Origin: Chloroflexota bacterium
Lineage (GTDB): Bacteria > Chloroflexota > Dehalococcoidia > Lucifugimonadales > GCA-2722455
Direction of reading: 5' to 3'
Length of the DNA: 64,000 bases
Assembly (NCBI GenBank): GCA_002722455.1
Contig: PBMB01000019.1
Coordinates: 1-64,000, forward strand
Positions 13,406-38,566 of the stretch are shown here, piece after piece (the first letter of the stretch is position 1; every line of letters starts with the position of its first letter). The position numbers and the translations under genes were made by a program. The notes beneath the pieces were generated by a model. That model saw only the letters and a list, made by a program, of their open reading frames with translations, ran no database searches and was not told the DNA's origin.

Positions 13406-14099
13406 TATCCCGTTTATTGTTTCCACCGAAGAAGAACTTAAAAAGTGCAAAGATAAATTAATGGCTGTTCGTGGTGAAGCAGGTGAAGATTTAGAAATTT
13501 TTGATTTTCAAAATAAAGTTCCCCAACACTGCACAGAATCATTTTTAGGCTTTGAAGATTCAACAGGTCTATATGACTGCCGTTTACGTAGTAAAAGTGT
13601 TTATTATTCTGTTGATCCTCAATTTGAACTGTTAAGTTACACAACTAATTTTCCACTGCCTGTTAAACTGGTTGAAAATATTCCTACTTTTTATGACGGG
13701 GAGTTCGAGAAACAAGAAGATTTATTGTGGAAACGATACGGATTCACTCGAAGTGTTGAAGATTTTATGACACTTATTGGAAATCAATTAAAAGAGTCAA
13801 AGCGAAAATTTGCTATTATCTTAAGTGAAGTTGAATACTACGACACTCTGTTTAATAAAAATGGGCGTATTTACCATACCGATCATTCTTCATTTGATTT
13901 AAAAGAAGGTGATAAACTGATTAATTTTAGTATTTACGAATTAAAAGAAAAGTCAGAATACACAGTCCCTAATGAAGAAAAAATGACAGCATTAGCTATT
14001 GTTATTCAAAGTGAAGATTTTAAAGAAAAAATTGATTTTCTTGAAAATATTAACAACAAAGAACTAACAGAGCAAAAATTAAAAGATTATCAACTTTAA
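13395..14099 (+). CDS. hypothetical protein, 234 aa
   Basis: It starts within the end of the previous gene, with GAGGA 11 bases upstream of the ATG. It begins with VSTEEELKKCKDKL, a helix resembling the neighbour's EEA segment. The rest is acidic and mixed alpha/beta with no recognised motif. Confidence 0.75.
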   Translation: MLVNIPFIVSTEEELKKCKDKLMAVRGEAGEDLEIFDFQNKVPQHCTESFLGFEDSTGLYDCRLRSKSVYYSVDPQFELLSYTTNFPLPVKLVENIPTFYDGEFEKQEDLLWKRYGFTRSVEDFMTLIGNQLKESKRKFAIILSEVEYYDTLFNKNGRIYHTDHSSFDLKEGDKLINFSIYELKEKSEYTVPNEEKMTALAIVIQSEDFKEKIDFLENINNKELTEQKLKDYQL

Positions 14100-14110
14100 A
14101 AGGCTAAATA

Positions 14111-14221
14111 ATGACATTAACAAAAACACAAGAAACAGAAGACCAAAAAGAACTGCGAGAGCAACACGAATCTGGTGTTGACATCGATACATTTATGCTT
14201 GCGTTCTTACACGAACAATAA
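14111..14221 (+). CDS. small hypothetical protein, 36 aa
   Basis: ATG 14111 follows AAAAGG and starts 11 bases after the previous stop. The product is very acidic (many Glu and Gln) with a hydrophobic TFMLAFLH near its end. Third gene of the unit starting at 13097; the terminator at 14238-14271 follows. Confidence 0.55.
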   Translation: MTLTKTQETEDQKELREQHESGVDIDTFMLAFLHEQ

Positions 14222-14237
14222 TTTATTTTTATTTTTT

Positions 14238-14271
14238 AAAGGAAGTTTTTGCTTGAAAACTTCCTTTTTTT
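14238..14271 (+). terminator. intrinsic terminator
   Basis: AAAGGAAGTTTT/AAAACTTCCTTT stem with a T-run ends the three-gene unit. Confidence 0.85.
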
Positions 14272-14340
14272 CTTTAGTGATGTTATGATATTTGTATCCC
14301 AAAAAGAAACCTTAAATAAAAAAACTTCGGAGAAACAAAT

Positions 14341-14628
14341 ATGTTAGAACAATTTATGATCGCAATTAATGGACTTATCGCAATCGCTCTAACTCAACTA
14401 CCTGTTCCTAAATCTTGGGTTAAATTCGCACCTGTATTTGGTCTTATTGGTCAACCATTCTGGCTAATCTCTACATACCAAAATCAGCAATTTGGTATTT
14501 TCACTGTTTGTTGTTGCTACTTAGGTCTATGGTCTATCGGCATTTATCGTTCTTGGCTTGCAAATGACAAAGAAGGTTGGAAAGATTTTAAAACCAACTT
14601 TCAAAAAACTGAAAAACTAATTGGTTAA
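14341..14628 (+). CDS. small inner-membrane protein, 95 aa
   Basis: CGGAG precedes the ATG. Three hydrophobic segments are likely (about 5-20, 28-46 and 50-70), with GLIGQPFWL and LWSIGIYRSW near membrane borders. This GQPFW...W pattern recalls PnuC-like or other small three-helix phage membrane proteins, but the match is weak. Basic and acidic residues follow the last helix, suggesting a cytoplasmic C-terminus. Confidence 0.7.
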   Translation: MLEQFMIAINGLIAIALTQLPVPKSWVKFAPVFGLIGQPFWLISTYQNQQFGIFTVCCCYLGLWSIGIYRSWLANDKEGWKDFKTNFQKTEKLIG

Positions 14629-14876
14629 AAAATTACTATTCATTAACTTTGCAACAAGTTGCAATTAATTTTAATAAAGCATTGTTATTTCGAATCAAAA
14701 AAAAGAAATTTTAGCCAAGCCATTTCGCTTTGGTGTGATTATCGGGACTTAAAGAGAGTAGCATTGCTGCTCTCTTTCTTTTTTGCTGACTCAAAACCTT
14801 ACTATATAGATGTTAAACTTTTTTATTTCATTCTTTTTAAAGATGTGGTATAATTACCTTTCTCTATGGAGGAATT
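14629..14876 (+). other. intergenic region with possible small RNA
   Basis: A TTGCAAC/GTTGCAA hairpin (about 14648-14663) comes first and a strong terminator ends the segment at 14781. An in-frame stretch at 14659-14853 crosses both the terminator and the next promoter (TATAAT near 14849), so it is not considered coding. A short untranslated RNA is possible. Confidence 0.3.
14751..14783 (+). terminator. intrinsic terminator
   Basis: AAAGAGAG and CTCTCTTT pair around a GCATTGC-type loop, followed by a T-run. Confidence 0.75.
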
Positions 14877-15332
14877 ATGGATCTATTAAAAAAATTAAAA
14901 GAAATTTCTGATTCTGACCTTAAACTACCCGTTTTCATTCGTATGTCTACTTTTGTTGGTAACATCAGAAGTGTTGATGTTGTCAGTTCAAAAGTATTCA
15001 AAAAAGGAGACGGCGAGCTTTGTCAGGTCTTATCTTTGCGAAACTCAGACTTTGACAAAGATTATATTCAAAATTATTGTGAAGCTAAAGGTGTTGAATT
15101 AGAATATGATGAAGACGAAGGTTATTTAGAAGACCTTTGTATTGACCCTATTGAATCAATTGAAGAATTAATTGCCGATTTAGAACTTAATCTAAACAAA
15201 AACATTCAAGATATTAGATATAGCGCATTAACAGGATTATCAGGCAAAGAGTATGTTATTACTTCAATTAATAAAGATGTTTATCATATGTTTGGACTTC
15301 CAAATGATTGTTTTATTATAGAAGTTAAATAA
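14877..15332 (+). CDS. hypothetical protein, 151 aa, tandem paralog A
   Basis: GGAGG is placed ideally before the ATG. The acidic product shares layout with the next gene: LLKKLK at the N-terminus, a beta-rich middle, then an I-x-x-LE-x-x-x-N-x-x-x-D-x-R helix. A local duplication is likely. Function unknown. Confidence 0.78.
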   Translation: MDLLKKLKEISDSDLKLPVFIRMSTFVGNIRSVDVVSSKVFKKGDGELCQVLSLRNSDFDKDYIQNYCEAKGVELEYDEDEGYLEDLCIDPIESIEELIADLELNLNKNIQDIRYSALTGLSGKEYVITSINKDVYHMFGLPNDCFIIEVK

Positions 15333-15342
15333 AGGAAATATC

Positions 15343-15723
15343 ATGAATCTATTAAAGAAATTAAAAAACATTCCTAATGATAAAAGACATTTAAATCTTT
15401 ATCATCATTATCCTAAAAAATATTTTAGAATTACAGAGATTAGTTCTGAAATTGTTAGTTTTTATGAAAAAGACAAGAATCTTAAATATCAAAGTATCTT
15501 TTTCAAATATGATAGTGAAAATATTTTTACGAAAGATAAAGTTAAACCATTAACTATAAATGATATTATTGAAATTTTAGAAAATACCATTAATGAAAAT
15601 GTTACTGATCATAGGTTCTTTTATATTGGTATGTCTGACTTAGTTTATCAGTGCTCTGACACCATTAGTTATAATACAGATGAGGAAGGAGAAAACGAAT
15701 GCTGTTACGTTATTCACAATTAA
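15343..15723 (+). CDS. hypothetical protein, 126 aa, tandem paralog B
   Basis: It starts 10 bases after paralog A with AAAGGA. MNLLKKLK, the I-x-EILE helix and V-T-D-x-R-F repeat the order seen in paralog A. The rest has diverged. No terminator until 15828. Confidence 0.75.
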   Translation: MNLLKKLKNIPNDKRHLNLYHHYPKKYFRITEISSEIVSFYEKDKNLKYQSIFFKYDSENIFTKDKVKPLTINDIIEILENTINENVTDHRFFYIGMSDLVYQCSDTISYNTDEEGENECCYVIHN

Positions 15724-15827
15724 TTATTTTCAAAAAAGTTGATTAAATCAGGTTTTTATAGCAAAGAAACAACCAACTTTGAACCTATAGGTTGTTGCCT
15801 AGAAGAATAATTTCATACAAAATATTT

Positions 15828-15857: not shown

Positions 15858-16032
15858 TGGAATTTATAGCATAATTTAAATTAAGGATTATTCGCTAAAA
15901 CAAACATAAAAAACATTAACAACAGCTTAGTTCTTAAATTAATATCCCTTCCATTCAGTTTGTATGACTTCTATTGTATACCTATTTTTTGCTATTTTTA
16001 CCATTATTAGATTAATTTTTTATTTTATTTAA

Positions 16033-16064
16033 AAAAAAAGACTACCCGAAGGTAGTCTTTTTTG
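16033..16064. terminator. bidirectional terminator
   Basis: AAAGACTACC/GGTAGTCTTT with A- and T-runs on either side; it terminates the minus-strand gene 16082-17356. Confidence 0.85.
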
Positions 16065-16081
16065 TTTTATAATTTACGAAA

Positions 16082-17356
16082 TCAACGTTTTTTGTTAAGT
16101 TTAAGCAGTTCTTTTGATTCACCTGCACGTTTATCAAAGACCTCAAATGCTTCGTTTGTCACCTGTCGAATTCGCTCACGTGAGATACCGTGGTTTTCTG
16201 CAATATCAGACATATTCCATTTCAATGTATCTGTAATTTCGTCAAGATAAGGAACAGGCTTACGCTTCTTCGTCTGCAGGTAAACAATTGAGCCTTTCCA
16301 GATAGGTAGGAATACATTTTTGATATCTTCAAGAATAAACGGGACCTTTACGTGTTTTTGAAGAATCTTTTTGTATTTCACTTCACTAACCGTCATATCC
16401 AGATTTATATTTTCATAACGAGCAAGCACTTTCTTTTCTTTCCAATTAAGACGTTCTTTGTGCTCTTTAATAAAGTTAATATCAAGCTTGATGTCATGAT
16501 TAATTACAAATGCTGCTTCTTTCCAAGTAGATACTTTTGTTTCTGTGCTTGGCTTTTTAGCTTTTTTCGTTGCAATTTCATATGATACGTCTTCTTCACC
16601 TGCTGATTTACTAGCAATCAGATAAACTTTCTTTGTTGTTTCTAAGTCATGAACTTGCTTCATTTGGTCATATTTGATTAGAGCTTGCATACGATCAAAT
16701 ACGGGACAGCAAAGCACTTTCTCAAAACATTCTTCACCGATCTTTTCAAGAGTCGATTGCGCCATTTTACCCTGCTTTTGGTAAGATTTCTGGCTTGACG
16801 CCCAGAAATTAAATGATTCTTTTGTTGTGCTTGCCGAAATCATTTGCAGATTATGAGGTTTAATACCAAATTCAAGAGCTTTTTGAAGAACAGGCAAGTA
16901 AGCTTCTAGTTGTGAAGGCTTACGCTTAAACAATTGAACGCCATGAGATTCTAAAAGTTCATTGATTTTCGTTGCTTTATCTTCGTCCATACGACTTTGA
17001 GCAAGCCAAGTGCTTATACCACGATTAAAAATTGGTTGAAGTTCTTCATCGGAAGGTAGAATAGACACATCGTTTTCTTCCAAATACTTTTCAAGACGAG
17101 CAAATGTTGTCTCCCAAGGCACACCTTGATTGTCAGCACCGATTTTGCCCATTACTTCGTATCTTTCAAACAGCTCTATCAGAACCGCACGATTGTTCAT
17201 TCGGGTAGGTGAGTTTTTATCTTCACGAACATTTCGCTCAATGAAGCCCAATAGATACTTATCCTCTTTCTCAGTTGGTCTACGACCATGTTTTTGGATA
17301 AATTTTTCAAGTTTCTTTACATTGTTTTTAAATATAGTTTCATTTTTTGTTGACAT
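16082..17356 (-). CDS. sigma70 region 4-like / helicase-associated-domain-like protein, 424 aa
   Basis: The C-terminal 60 residues contain WNMSDIAENHGISRERIRQV, which matches the helix-turn-helix of sigma70 region 4 (the -35 recognition helix and R-E-R-I-R-Q core). Upstream, the middle 270 residues are homologous to the next gene but to no family I recognise; no region 2 (-10 recognition) is visible. Residues about 10-140 hold two W/F-x-x-x-L-x-x-[FY]-like units with R-P-T and WLAQSR patterns, similar to helicase-associated DNA-binding repeats. A TTG at 17365 extends the frame by three codons, but the ATG at 17356 is preferred. Probably a DNA-binding transcription regulator or divergent sigma factor. 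Confidence 0.72.
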   Translation of the reverse strand: MSTKNETIFKNNVKKLEKFIQKHGRRPTEKEDKYLLGFIERNVREDKNSPTRMNNRAVLIELFERYEVMGKIGADNQGVPWETTFARLEKYLEENDVSILPSDEELQPIFNRGISTWLAQSRMDEDKATKINELLESHGVQLFKRKPSQLEAYLPVLQKALEFGIKPHNLQMISASTTKESFNFWASSQKSYQKQGKMAQSTLEKIGEECFEKVLCCPVFDRMQALIKYDQMKQVHDLETTKKVYLIASKSAGEEDVSYEIATKKAKKPSTETKVSTWKEAAFVINHDIKLDINFIKEHKERLNWKEKKVLARYENINLDMTVSEVKYKKILQKHVKVPFILEDIKNVFLPIWKGSIVYLQTKKRKPVPYLDEITDTLKWNMSDIAENHGISRERIRQVTNEAFEVFDKRAGESKELLKLNKKR

Positions 17357-17393
17357 ACTTCCCAACCATTGTTTATTTTCAGATAGTGTCCTA

Positions 17394-17422
17394 ATTCTAG
17401 CTTAACTTTAAAAGGTGTACAA
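17394..17422 (-). promoter_or_regulatory. sigma70-type promoter
   Basis: On the minus strand TTGTAC (17422-17417), 17 bp and TAGAAT (17399-17394) precede the sigma-like gene ending at 16082. Confidence 0.65.
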
Positions 17423-17482
17423 GATTTTTTTTCTAAAATCAAGCTAAAATTAGATCTCCCTCTCATTTTTTATTAAGTTTTT

Positions 17483-18325
17483 TTATGCTTTTCTATTAAT
17501 GTTTTTAACTTTAACAGAACGAACCAAGCGTTTATCGAAAGATTCAAAAAGATCATTCGTTACCTGACGAATACGTTCACGAGTTAAACCATATTCGTCA
17601 CCAATATCAGACATATTCCATTTTAGACTTTCTGTGATTTCTTTCATATAAGGCAATTTACGACCTTTTTCTTTAAAACTTTCTTCTACGACTTTTTTCC
17701 ATAGCTCTAACGTTAGTGATTCCAAATCTTTGAAATCAAAAGCACCTTTAATATGTTTTTTCAATATCTTTTTAAACTTCAATTCACTTACTGAAAGTTC
17801 TGTATTTACATTTTTATACTTTTCAAAGAAAGCACGTTCTTCTTTTGATAGTAGTTCTGACTTTTCACGAATTGAATCAATATCGTTTTTAATGTCATGC
17901 ACTACGACAAACTCAATATCATTCCAATTCGCTGCTTTATCAGCTTTAAATTTCTTTGGTTTCTTTGTTGTTACTTCATAAGTAAGATTTTCTTCACCTG
18001 CTTTTTTAGTCATTACAAGGAATACTTTTCGAGTTGTTTCTAGGTCAATATTGGTTTCCATTGAATCAAACTTAGCAACAGCACGTATTTTATCAAATAC
18101 AGGGCAACAGAATACTTTGTTAAATGGTTTCTCACCAATTTCTTCCATTACCATAGGGTTTAGCTTACCGTCTTGACTTTGCTTCTTCTGGTATGACGCC
18201 CACCAGTAAAAATCGTCATTAGCTTCTGTTACTGCAAACATTTGTAGGTTCTTGGGTTTTAGACCTAGTTCAAACGCTTTTGAAATTACAGGTAGGTAAG
18301 AGATCAAACGTTCTTGTGGTGACAT
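17483..18325 (-). CDS. sigma70 region 4-like protein, 280 aa (paralog of the previous gene)
   Basis: It aligns over its whole length with residues about 150-420 of the gene at 16082: LPV-x-x-KA-x-E-G-x-KP-x-NLQM, FCCPVFD, LETT-x-KV-x-L, a conserved KILKKH and the region 4-like WNMSDIGDEYGLTRERIRQV. It lacks the N-terminal helicase-associated-like part. The frame extends to 18388, but the ATG at 18325 has AAAGG upstream and lies downstream of a promoter (TTGACT, 17 bp, TAAATT). Probably a second regulator from duplication. Confidence 0.72.
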   Translation of the reverse strand: MSPQERLISYLPVISKAFELGLKPKNLQMFAVTEANDDFYWWASYQKKQSQDGKLNPMVMEEIGEKPFNKVFCCPVFDKIRAVAKFDSMETNIDLETTRKVFLVMTKKAGEENLTYEVTTKKPKKFKADKAANWNDIEFVVVHDIKNDIDSIREKSELLSKEERAFFEKYKNVNTELSVSELKFKKILKKHIKGAFDFKDLESLTLELWKKVVEESFKEKGRKLPYMKEITESLKWNMSDIGDEYGLTRERIRQVTNDLFESFDKRLVRSVKVKNINRKA

Positions 18326-27372: not shown

Positions 27373-29286
27373 ATGGACATTTTTAATAAAATAACTGTAA
27401 AAACAAAATTAGTGATTATTTGTATATTAGTCGCTTCTTTATCTCTAATTTATGCAATATTTGAAAACCACAGCATAAATAAAATAATTGAACTTGAAGA
27501 TATTAAATCATTAAATTGGAAAGTTGAGGCTGAAATATTAACATTAAGAAGACACGAAAAAGATTTTCTTAATAGACACGAATTTAAATATGTTGATAAA
27601 TTCGAAAAAACAATGGATCATTTAATTCACGATCTTGAAGAACTAGACCAATACTATTCAGACGTATTTAATGACAATCATTCTTCTGGTTATTTAGAAA
27701 TCCGTGATAAATTAAAACACTATGACGAAATCTTTCATAAAATTGGTCAAGAGTATAAAACACTATATCAAGACGGTGGATTATTACTTGATATAAAAAC
27801 ATTGAGACATGAAGTAGAAGCAGAGCTTATAAAAAATATAAAGTTACTGAGAAAATCTGTTGAAACTGAATTATTAAAAGGTCAAGATATTCAGCAAGAA
27901 CATTATTTCTTAGTTATGATTGAAAGTGATTATGAGTTTTTAATCGATCATACTCAAAAGAACTTAAACGCTTTCATAAAAGCAAAGTCTGACTTTACTG
28001 AATCTATTAAAAATTCAAAAAATCCTGCTCTATTAACTAAAACTGAAGAATATATAAATGCTTATTCTATTTATATTGATATTATATCAAGAATTGGTTT
28101 TAAATATGATGAAGGTATGTTATTAGAACTAAGAGAAGATGTCCATGCAGCAGAAAAATTTATTATCAATAAAATTCGAGAAATAGATATTATTATTAGA
28201 AATGAAATTTCTATTGTTAAATCAGAATTACATTATTTTTCTATCTTTATTACTGGTCTTTCATTAACTTCCATTATTTTTGTCGCTTATCTAATTAGCG
28301 GCAGAACAAGATTACTAATGAATAAAATGGATAATGTTGCAAATGGTGATAGAGATTTAACAACTAGATTAACATTGAAAGGCAACGATGAATTTACAAC
28401 TATTGCTAATCACTTCAACACTTTTGTTAAAGGTTTGCAAGAATCATTTAAAGAAATAAAAGACATATCTTTAACTATAGATACAAGCACTAATAACTCT
28501 TTAAACAATATTGAAAAAACAGAAGAAAATTATCAATCAACCTTATCTGAAATAACACATATGGGTAGTGCAATCCATGAAATGGTTACTGCCAACAAAG
28601 AAATAAGCAATGCCTTAATGCAAGCAGATTTTTCTGCTGAAAATCTTAAAGGTGTTAATGACGAAGCACATAAAATATTTGTTGAATCTAACGAAAAAGT
28701 TGCAAATCTTTATTTACAACTAATTGAAGGTCAAAAACATATTGATGAACTTCATCATAAATCAGAAAACATACAATCTGTAACTCAATCTATTCAAAAT
28801 ATAGCCTCTCAAATCAACTTACTTTCCTTAAATGCAGCCATTGAAGCCGCAAGAGCAGGAGAGCACGGAAAAGGATTTGCTGTTGTTGCTGACGAAGTTA
28901 GACAGCTTTCAATACAAACAGATCAAGCTACAAACAATATTGATTCGACAATTCAATCATTAAAAAAAGAAATTCATGAAGTTATTGACCTTATGAAAAG
29001 TGCTTCAAATGTCGCAGAGAGTACAAGTGAACATAGTGAAGAAGCTACGCAAAAATTTGGCACTGTTTATGATCACACTATGGATGTTAAAGACCGAATG
29101 ACACAAATCTCAACCGCAAGTGAACAACAAAGCTATGCTAACAAGGAAATTGACGTTAATTTACAAAGTATTACAGGATTTTCAAACAATATTGCGAATG
29201 ATATTTCGAGTTGTCGTGAAGAAGCTAAAAACATAAATGATAAAGCGAGTAAACTTACACATATAGTGGATCAATTTAAAATCTAA
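27373..29286 (+). CDS. methyl-accepting chemotaxis protein, 637 aa
   Basis: Full receptor layout: TM1 at residues 12-29, a long helical periplasmic sensor (about 30-285) with [13 protein letters not shown] near its start, as in HBM/helical bimodular sensors, TM2 at about 287-309, HAMP (about 310-365) and a cytoplasmic signalling domain whose hairpin tip ([20 protein letters not shown], from about residue 485) is canonical. It would couple a small-molecule signal to CheA/CheW. No other chemotaxis gene is nearby. Arginine is mostly AGA, unlike neighbours that favour CGT/CGA, suggesting separate acquisition. GAGGGTAGG precedes the ATG. Confidence 0.92.
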
Positions 29287-32568: not shown

Positions 32569-33606
32569 ATGAAAAAATTTATTGTTGGTTTAAGTGTTTT
32601 CATTACGTTAAATACTTACGCAACTGACTTTAATGTAATCATTTCGAAAGAAAATAATAGCTATGACGTTGCAAAAGGATATATCATTGTAACTGAAACG
32701 ACAAACTGGACAACGCTTTCTAACGCTTGTTCTGAAACTACACCTCTTGAAAATATCTACTTTGGCGTTTCTGTTAATGAAGAAGTTGTGTGCCAAGATT
32801 ACCAAGAAAGAGATAAAATAACTAAAAAAGTCTATAACAGTGGAACAGAAGAAATATTAAATACAGAAACAGAATCTCAATATATTGAAACGTCAAGAAA
32901 TACAGTTACATTAGTTGGAACACACCAAGAAGATACTTGCTTAAATATACAGACATTCGACAATACATTACCTGACGGTCAATATTCTGTCTTTATTGAT
33001 AACTCTGAAATACACGTATTATGCGATATGACAACTGACGGTGGAGGTTGGACTAAAGTTGCCAGAATCAATCCAAAAGCGACTCTTGTTGTTGAAAGTG
33101 ATTCTTGGCAAAGCATTCATAACTTAACTTCTTACAGTGGTTCACATGCATTAAAATACTTAGCTAAATTTAATCCACAAAACATATTATTTAAAAACAC
33201 TTCTGTTGAACCCTATTATGGTGGTGATGACTTGATTATTGTTTCAAGAACAACAGGAGCTTGGAATTGGATTCCATATAATTACAACAACAACAGTCAA
33301 CAAACCGCTCGTTTTTATGACGCTTCTGCAGATTCTTGGAATAATTTAGGAAATGCTACTTACGCTTCTCATGAAGGAAATCCTTGGCAACAAGCTTCAC
33401 TTTCATTTACCATTAATGGTATACAGAATGGTTATCGATCTGAGCAGGATAACCGATTGATTTTAGGACCTACTTTTTCTAGTATTTCAAGCAGTAGCGC
33501 ACGTTGGTTTAACTTTTATGGAAATGAGGCTTCAAGTGTTAATAATGCTTGGTCAATGGGAACAAACAGTGATCAGAATGCCACTGGCGAAGTTTGGATG
33601 AAATAA
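32569..33606 (+). CDS. secreted fibrinogen-like-domain protein, 345 aa
   Basis: A signal peptide (residues 1-18, ending TYA) is followed by a beta-rich region and then the start of a fibrinogen-related domain: LPDGQYSVFI (134-143), then CDMTTDGGGWT (152-162), a signature of FReD-like lectin and adhesin domains. The C-terminal 180 residues are Asn/Ser/Trp-rich. Such domains bind glycans or proteins outside the cell. Bacterial versions are known in marine Vibrio-like secreted proteins. AAAAGGA precedes the ATG. It probably acts at the cell surface or is exported. Confidence 0.75.
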   Translation: MKKFIVGLSVFITLNTYATDFNVIISKENNSYDVAKGYIIVTETTNWTTLSNACSETTPLENIYFGVSVNEEVVCQDYQERDKITKKVYNSGTEEILNTETESQYIETSRNTVTLVGTHQEDTCLNIQTFDNTLPDGQYSVFIDNSEIHVLCDMTTDGGGWTKVARINPKATLVVESDSWQSIHNLTSYSGSHALKYLAKFNPQNILFKNTSVEPYYGGDDLIIVSRTTGAWNWIPYNYNNNSQQTARFYDASADSWNNLGNATYASHEGNPWQQASLSFTINGIQNGYRSEQDNRLILGPTFSSISSSSARWFNFYGNEASSVNNAWSMGTNSDQNATGEVWMK

Positions 33607-37378: not shown

Positions 37379-38566
37379 ATGAAGTCAAAAATCTTTGCCT
37401 CGGCTCTTATTGCAGCTATGTCTTTTTCTGCTAATGCTGTAGTTGGTAATCCTGACGGGGTAAGAGCAAGTTTTAACAACTATCCATTTTTCGCACAACT
37501 TGGTCATCTTGTTGACTATGGTAACGGTGATGGCGTGGAATTCGGACAATTTTGTGGTGGCTCTATCATTTCTGCCGATCAAATCCTAACAGCAGCTCAC
37601 TGTGTCGATGACTATGTTTATGGCGGCAAAGATTTCACTAAATTAAAAGTTCTTGTTTATAACAATGAAAAACAATATATTGGAATGCAAGAAGTTAAAG
37701 GTGTTGACAACATTATCATCATGGGTAGTGCTGATGACGCTTTAACTGGAACAGATTTATATTTATCTCGTAACTACCCAAGTGGTGTTTATGAAGAATC
37801 TACGACCCCTGCTGCCAATGACGTTGCTATTATCACACTTGAGAGCGCAATTCAAGACAATGTTCGAGTTGCCAATCTTGCCCACAGTGTAAACAATTCA
37901 CTTTCTTTGAATGACGGTGATTTATTGCAAGTTGCAGGTCAAGGTAAAGATTCGATGGTATACAAATATACCGATTCAGATGGTAATTTGGTTTATGACG
38001 CTCATGACGACTCTACCTTTAACGAAGCTGATACTGTTTTTGTTGATGACACTTCTTGTTCTAGTTTGGGAACGAGTCTTGTAGACATAAACATTGAAAA
38101 GTCTCAAACAATTTGTACAACACACATTGATTTTTCTAACAATCAATTAGGTCGTGCTTGTTCTGGTGACTCAGGAGGACCATTAGTTCGTTCTGGTGTT
38201 CAAATTGGTATTGTAAGTCGTGGTTCTAGTGGTTGTTCAGATGACGGATACTCAATGTTTGTAGACGTTCAAGATCCAGAAGTTCAAGCATTTATTGATC
38301 ACTACAAAAATTCTGATACTTTACCTGCATTCGTCCCTGTTTCAAACGGTATTGCAACCCAAAAAAGTGTTGGTGACGGTCTTACTAATTTAGAAGTTTG
38401 TGCAGACTTAGGTATTGATTCAACTAATTGTCCTGACGGTTCAATGAGTGACGGTGGCGGTAGTGATAATGGTGGTTCTAATGGCGGTGGCGGTGGCGGT
38501 GGCTCTACTGGTCTACTAACGCTACTTGGTCTTGGTCTACTAACACTACGTCGAGTTAAAAAATAA
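37379..38566 (+). CDS. secreted trypsin-like serine protease with GlyGly-CTERM tail, 395 aa
   Basis: Signal peptide 1-20. The catalytic triad sits in TAAHC (H74), NDVAI (D148) and GDSGGP (S265), typical S1 family. The C-terminus has a Gly-rich linker, then GLLTLLGLGLLTLRR and a final KK, the GlyGly-CTERM sorting signal cleaved by rhombosortase. This architecture is that of Vibrio VesB-type proteases, exported by type II secretion and anchored on the surface. Single-gene unit, RBS AAGGAA. Unusual cargo for a phage-like region. Confidence 0.9.
   Translation: MKSKIFASALIAAMSFSANAVVGNPDGVRASFNNYPFFAQLGHLVDYGNGDGVEFGQFCGGSIISADQILTAAHCVDDYVYGGKDFTKLKVLVYNNEKQYIGMQEVKGVDNIIIMGSADDALTGTDLYLSRNYPSGVYEESTTPAANDVAIITLESAIQDNVRVANLAHSVNNSLSLNDGDLLQVAGQGKDSMVYKYTDSDGNLVYDAHDDSTFNEADTVFVDDTSCSSLGTSLVDINIEKSQTICTTHIDFSNNQLGRACSGDSGGPLVRSGVQIGIVSRGSSGCSDDGYSMFVDVQDPEVQAFIDHYKNSDTLPAFVPVSNGIATQKSVGDGLTNLEVCADLGIDSTNCPDGSMSDGGGSDNGGSNGGGGGGGSTGLLTLLGLGLLTLRRVKK

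Follow-up and report, generated by a model that had tools for sequence, protein, structure and literature searches.

Paralogous genes encoding a C-terminal helix-turn-helix that resembles sigma70 region 4.2, with no detectable region 2 and a shared core of no known family

In the split sigma factor SigO-RsoA, the sigma4 part (SigO) and the sigma2 part (RsoA) are separate proteins (PMC8103513), and gp33, the late-transcription co-activator of T4, attaches to the beta flap without reading DNA sequence (PMC2988020). For E. coli RpoD, residues R584, E585, R586, R588 and Q589 are listed as contacting the -35 element (PMC4943231). Two neighbouring genes, P1 and P2, in a window of 64,000 nucleotides (the whole stretch of DNA analysed here) are considered beside these systems.

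The genes are in tandem on the minus strand, with a gap of 126 nt between them. P2 (17483..18325, 280 aa, ATG at 18325 with the ribosome-binding site AAAAGG) encodes a shared core and a C-terminal sigma4.2-like helix-turn-helix (HTH), and P1 (16082..17356, 424 aa, ATG at 17356) encodes two N-terminal HA-like repeats, the shared core and a C-terminal sigma4.2-like HTH. As read from the sequence, each gene is preceded by a plausible sigma70 promoter of its own and a ribosome-binding site, the candidate promoters being TTGACT-17 bp-TAAATT for P2 (18360..18388, minus strand) and TTGTAC-17 bp-TAGAAT for P1 (17394..17422, minus strand), the latter with the spacing of the contig-wide promoter described below. 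P1 is followed by a strong intrinsic terminator (GACTACC-loop-GGTAGTC and a T run; 16031..16064, minus strand; fold -16.5 kcal/mol, z -4.35). In BLASTP, 127 of 275 residues were identical between the two proteins (46%, E 4e-87); divergence at codon positions 1, 2 and 3 was 0.43, 0.27 and 0.59, respectively, and 51 of the 127 identical residues were encoded by different codons. Since the proteins share 46% identity over 275 residues while third codon positions are the most diverged, both P1 and P2 look like real genes under selection. Both products are net basic (76 K+R and 63 D+E in P1, 54 and 46 in P2). Two TTGAC sequences in inverted orientation at the P2 promoter were rejected as an operator because such pairs were no more frequent on the contig than expected by chance (4 observed, 4.8 expected), and the analysis identified no DNA target, operator or regulon of P1 or P2.

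The C-terminal HTH covers residues 372-411 of P1 (16124..16243, minus strand, recognition helix SRERIRQV; detected by Pfam, PDB profile, NCBIfam and hhalign) and residues 228-267 of P2 (17525..17644, minus strand, recognition helix TRERIRQV; detected by Pfam, NCBIfam and PDB search). Pfam Sigma70_r4 (PF04545) matched residues 380-405 of P1 (E 1.3e-4) and residues 236-255 of P2 (E 7.3e-4), both slightly below the curated cut-off, and the P1 match reached 24.1 bits, which is at the cut-off, in a whole-genome search. The only NCBIfam models matched at E<=1 were of the RpoH, RpoS and SigA type, at the same C-terminal residues, and all 17 chains matched in the PDB profile search were sigma region 4 (best E 0.015), chains that were not found by phmmer with P1 alone. 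Aligned by hhalign to RpoD and RpoH, the whole protein gave E 2.8e-5 across 31 columns and the C-terminal part E 1.2e-6, compared with 0.47 for the reversed decoy. The match is about 30 residues long and covers region 4.2, not 4.1; a complete region 4 was not found by Pfam, with only profile positions 21-46 or 21-40 of 50 being matched. On these comparisons, the likeness to sigma region 4.2 is sound and specific, though short. The recognition helix RERIRQV is identical in P1 and P2, and through the shared RERIRQ motif the five RpoD residues listed above correspond to both paralogs. The HTH is also the best-conserved block between the two proteins (66% vs 42% elsewhere), with a best-window permutation p of only 0.16.

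Regions 1.2, 2 and 3 were not detected in P1 or P2 by Pfam scan even at E<=1. Under the identical scan, four true sigma factors (RpoD from the same bin, one RpoH, and two ECF factors encoded on contigs C1 and C2) showed region 2 (PF04542) with E values from 1.4e-8 to 1.4e-23. The assignment of P1 and P2 as sigma factors is not supported by these scans, the defining region 2 having been looked for and not found.

The HA-like repeats occupy the additional ~146 residues of P1, as repeat 1 (residues 8-68; 17153..17335, minus strand) and repeat 2 (residues 79-141; 16934..17122, minus strand; best Pfam HA stretch 80-126). On the whole of P1, Pfam HA (PF03457) gave E 6.5e-4 and 20.4 bits, below the cut-off of 28.4. 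A Pseudomonas plasmid gave a helicase match (E 0.8) that was not counted but prompted an HA test; the HMM for it was derived from 17 repeats, most of which belong to helicase-type proteins (Pseudomonas plasmid, gammaproteobacterial genomes). Of 2000 shuffles, none reached the score of P1 residues 1-80 and one reached that of residues 75-150, so that the two repeats of P1 appear weak but supported. A third HA-like copy where the shared core begins (16/2000 shuffles in P2, 89/2000 in P1) is suggestive only.

The shared core, ~220 residues long (P1 residues 149-370, 16247..16912; P2 residues 6-226, 17648..18310; both minus strand), belongs to no known family and matched no known regulator domain in Pfam or NCBIfam. 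A HisE-like match of P1 (E 0.44) was not counted. Two AlphaFold models from two-row alignments (pLDDT 47 and 66) were too poor for placing the core, the P2 core being mixed alpha/beta in the low-confidence model (pLDDT 66, pTM 0.53), and three Foldseek searches with the predicted models gave no match at E<=0.001. The earlier note on this DNA had described two paralogs ending in a region 4-like HTH, without a visible region 2, with a shared core of no recognised family and with a helicase-associated-like N-terminal part in one of them, and this description is borne out by the coordinates, the identity, the profile matches and the shuffles given above.

No relative of P1 or P2 was found among 50,697 phages (tblastn) or in IMG/VR scans, and no full-length relative was found in plasmids, three viral-contig scans and one GTDB-contig scan (samples), in a sample of 58 further genomes from the order to which the bin belongs, or in ~300 genomes of the order whose DnaK is nearest. 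A search of 369 gammaproteobacterial genomes gave one match, to region 4 of an RpoH, again with no full-length relative. The searches covered samples, and the absence of relatives is weak evidence; within the collections searched, the family has two known members, these genes alone.

The window and the pieces L003-L005 belong to C19, a contig of 115,854 bases in a 30-contig bin. The contig carrying the 16S gene and those like it are mostly 32-37% GC with long genes, and the 16S sequence looks SAR202-like by eye. A second set of nine contigs, about 1.2 Mb in all and with C19 among them, stands apart, with about 25-33% GC and mostly shorter genes. Secreted fibrinogen-like paralogs are shared among these contigs, which also carry gammaproteobacterial-type genes, such as a FadE-like protein closest to Pseudoalteromonas at 54% and a DnaK with 67% at best. 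Contig C2 bears dnaK, and TilS, thymidylate kinase and further housekeeping families are represented among the proteins of C11 and C25. The bin combines SAR202-like contigs with gammaproteobacterium-like ones that have a lower GC content and another gene density, and C19 groups with the latter, which were mis-binned into a SAR202-like MAG.

Families on C19 include trypsin, chemoreceptor, HPr, Nudix, AdoMet decarboxylase and dCMP deaminase, and the contig may be a chromosome, a plasmid or a novel element. Secreted fibrinogen-C-like paralogs are found on several contigs (window 32569-33603; L004:7656-8897; L024:17799-18689; L031:12328-13275; also L006). Secreted trypsin-like proteases are encoded on C19 (window 37379-38563, with a GlyGly-CTERM-like tail; L003:16198-17289), and several contigs of the same organism encode ~700-aa paralogs with a 'WCVxR' motif (L081:15139-17283, L084:15894-18083, L085:16948-19038, L087:9930-12149 and 13727-15757). 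A methyl-accepting chemotaxis protein is encoded at 27373-29283 of the window, amid small hypothetical genes. The bin yielded no RpoD of the organism itself.

Most genes of C19 and its kin contigs have a near-uniform sigma70-type promoter of their own, ~38 nt before the ATG. In the upstream regions of C19, TATAAT was observed 88 times against 24 expected, with a peak 35-43 nt ahead of the start codon; with at most one mismatch it was present at 136 of 196 genes, and the aligned consensus was TTGnTTT, 17 bp, TGnTATAAT. The same architecture was observed on C2, C11, C12, C15, C22 and C25 and, more weakly, on C1 and C21, while the SAR202-like contigs hardly show it (TATAAT at 13% of genes). These are most likely the ordinary sigma70 promoters of the organism. 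Since the elements are also present on contigs with dnaK, the fadE-like gene and tilS, they do not point specifically to a factor encoded at 16-18 kb, and uniform -35 elements were rejected by this cross-contig comparison as evidence of a new sigma factor.

The earlier note had linked these elements to P1 and P2 as possible -35-recognising co-activators or a new type of phage sigma factor; the elements are present, but their tie to the two genes is weakened, and with the -35 link being an organism-wide promoter habit, the main reason for suspecting such a factor is removed. The sigma part of that proposal is not supported, region 2 not having been found. The phage part is not supported either: no phage structural or packaging set was seen on C19 among the families listed (25 of 34; one weak 'portal' PHROG, E 2.9e-7), no phage or viral relatives were found in the collections searched, and the promoters and secreted-protein paralogs are common to contigs bearing housekeeping genes. 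C19 could still conceivably be a piece of an undescribed phage. The suggested co-occurrence with RNA polymerase genes was not observed among the families listed on C19.

The reading preferred here, with a probability of roughly 0.5, is that P1 and P2 arose by duplication and regulate transcription by binding DNA, without being sigma factors, in a gammaproteobacterium-like organism of low GC content or on a plasmid that it carries. It is based on the matches to region 4 only (Pfam, NCBIfam, PDB profile and hhalign), the intact helix, the basic charge, the HA repeats of P1 and the missing regions 1.2, 2 and 3. The HTH would read a -35-like (TTG-containing) DNA sequence, the shared core would carry dimerisation or signal sensing, and the HA repeats may lengthen the DNA contact of P1; binding at or near -35 elements would then repress or activate a subset of the ordinary sigma70 promoters. 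P1 and P2 would probably constitute a new small family of regulators reusing the known region 4.2 HTH.

With no function assigned to the core, these proteins fit DNA maintenance or repair almost as well as transcription. P1 and P2 may act in partition, repair, replication control or as accessory proteins of a mobile element, with the HA repeats and the sigma4-like HTH merely holding DNA. HA repeats sit in helicase-type proteins, the source of most repeats in the model, and the core has no match to known regulator domains, but no helicase, nuclease or ATPase family was detected in P1 or P2 by Pfam or NCBIfam, and this explanation is regarded as rather doubtful.

A role as region-4-only co-factors is unlikely. 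The HTH would dock on the beta flap of RNA polymerase, replacing sigma domain 4 or beside it, and steer the enzyme to chosen -35 elements, with region 2 supplied by a partner or the host sigma factor. The recognition helix is intact and of sigma70 rather than another HTH type, and both SigO with its separate RsoA and gp33 as a flap-bound sigma4 mimic are precedents. However, region 4.1 is unrecognisable, the match starting at position 21 of the 50 profile positions, and the promoters are organism-wide. In addition, no Sigma70_r2 protein that could be a region-2-only partner was present among the 25 families listed at E<=1e-4 (Pfam, 143 contig proteins), a search that a diverged or distant partner could escape. 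A promoter-specificity module without region 2, in which P1 and P2 would be alternative sigma4.2 domains that dock on the polymerase with the host sigma factor and retarget it among near-identical one-gene promoters, is judged improbable.

A complete but extremely diverged sigma factor, of phage or other origin, with regions 2 and 3 hidden in the core, is very improbable: protein length and the C-terminal position of the HTH would fit, and P2 has a marginal PDB match to a segment of E. coli RpoD outside region 4 (E 0.05-0.09), but that match was dropped since P1 gives none, the profile-profile check of the core against sigma by hhalign (E 0.27) was comparable to the reversed decoy (0.57), the core contains strands in the low-confidence models, unlike the all-helical sigma2/3, and Foldseek gave no sigma match of weight.

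If the regulator reading is right, P1 and P2 would be a further case of a regulator that has adopted a sigma region 4 HTH detached from the sigma factor. No description of the combination of a region 4 HTH, a novel core and HA repeats was found in the literature searched. The likeness to sigma70 region 4 of group 1-3 factors (PF04545; e.g., RpoD, RpoS and RpoH) is that of the region 4.2 HTH with RERIRQ near the C-terminus, whereas P1 and P2 are without regions 1.2, 2 and 3 and without a recognisable region 4.1. With HA repeat proteins (PF03457), P1 shares the repeat pattern at residues 8-68 and 79-141, but it is below the Pfam cut-off, has no helicase domain and contains only two diverged repeats. 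SigO and gp33 are set beside P1 and P2 by description, not by sequence. SigO-RsoA is similar in that region 4 is carried by a protein lacking region 2, while P1 and P2 have a large extra core, HA repeats in P1 and no region-2-only partner among the families listed on C19. T4 gp33 is similar in concept, standing in for sigma4 while lacking region 2, but in contrast to gp33, P1 and P2 keep the predicted DNA-reading helix.
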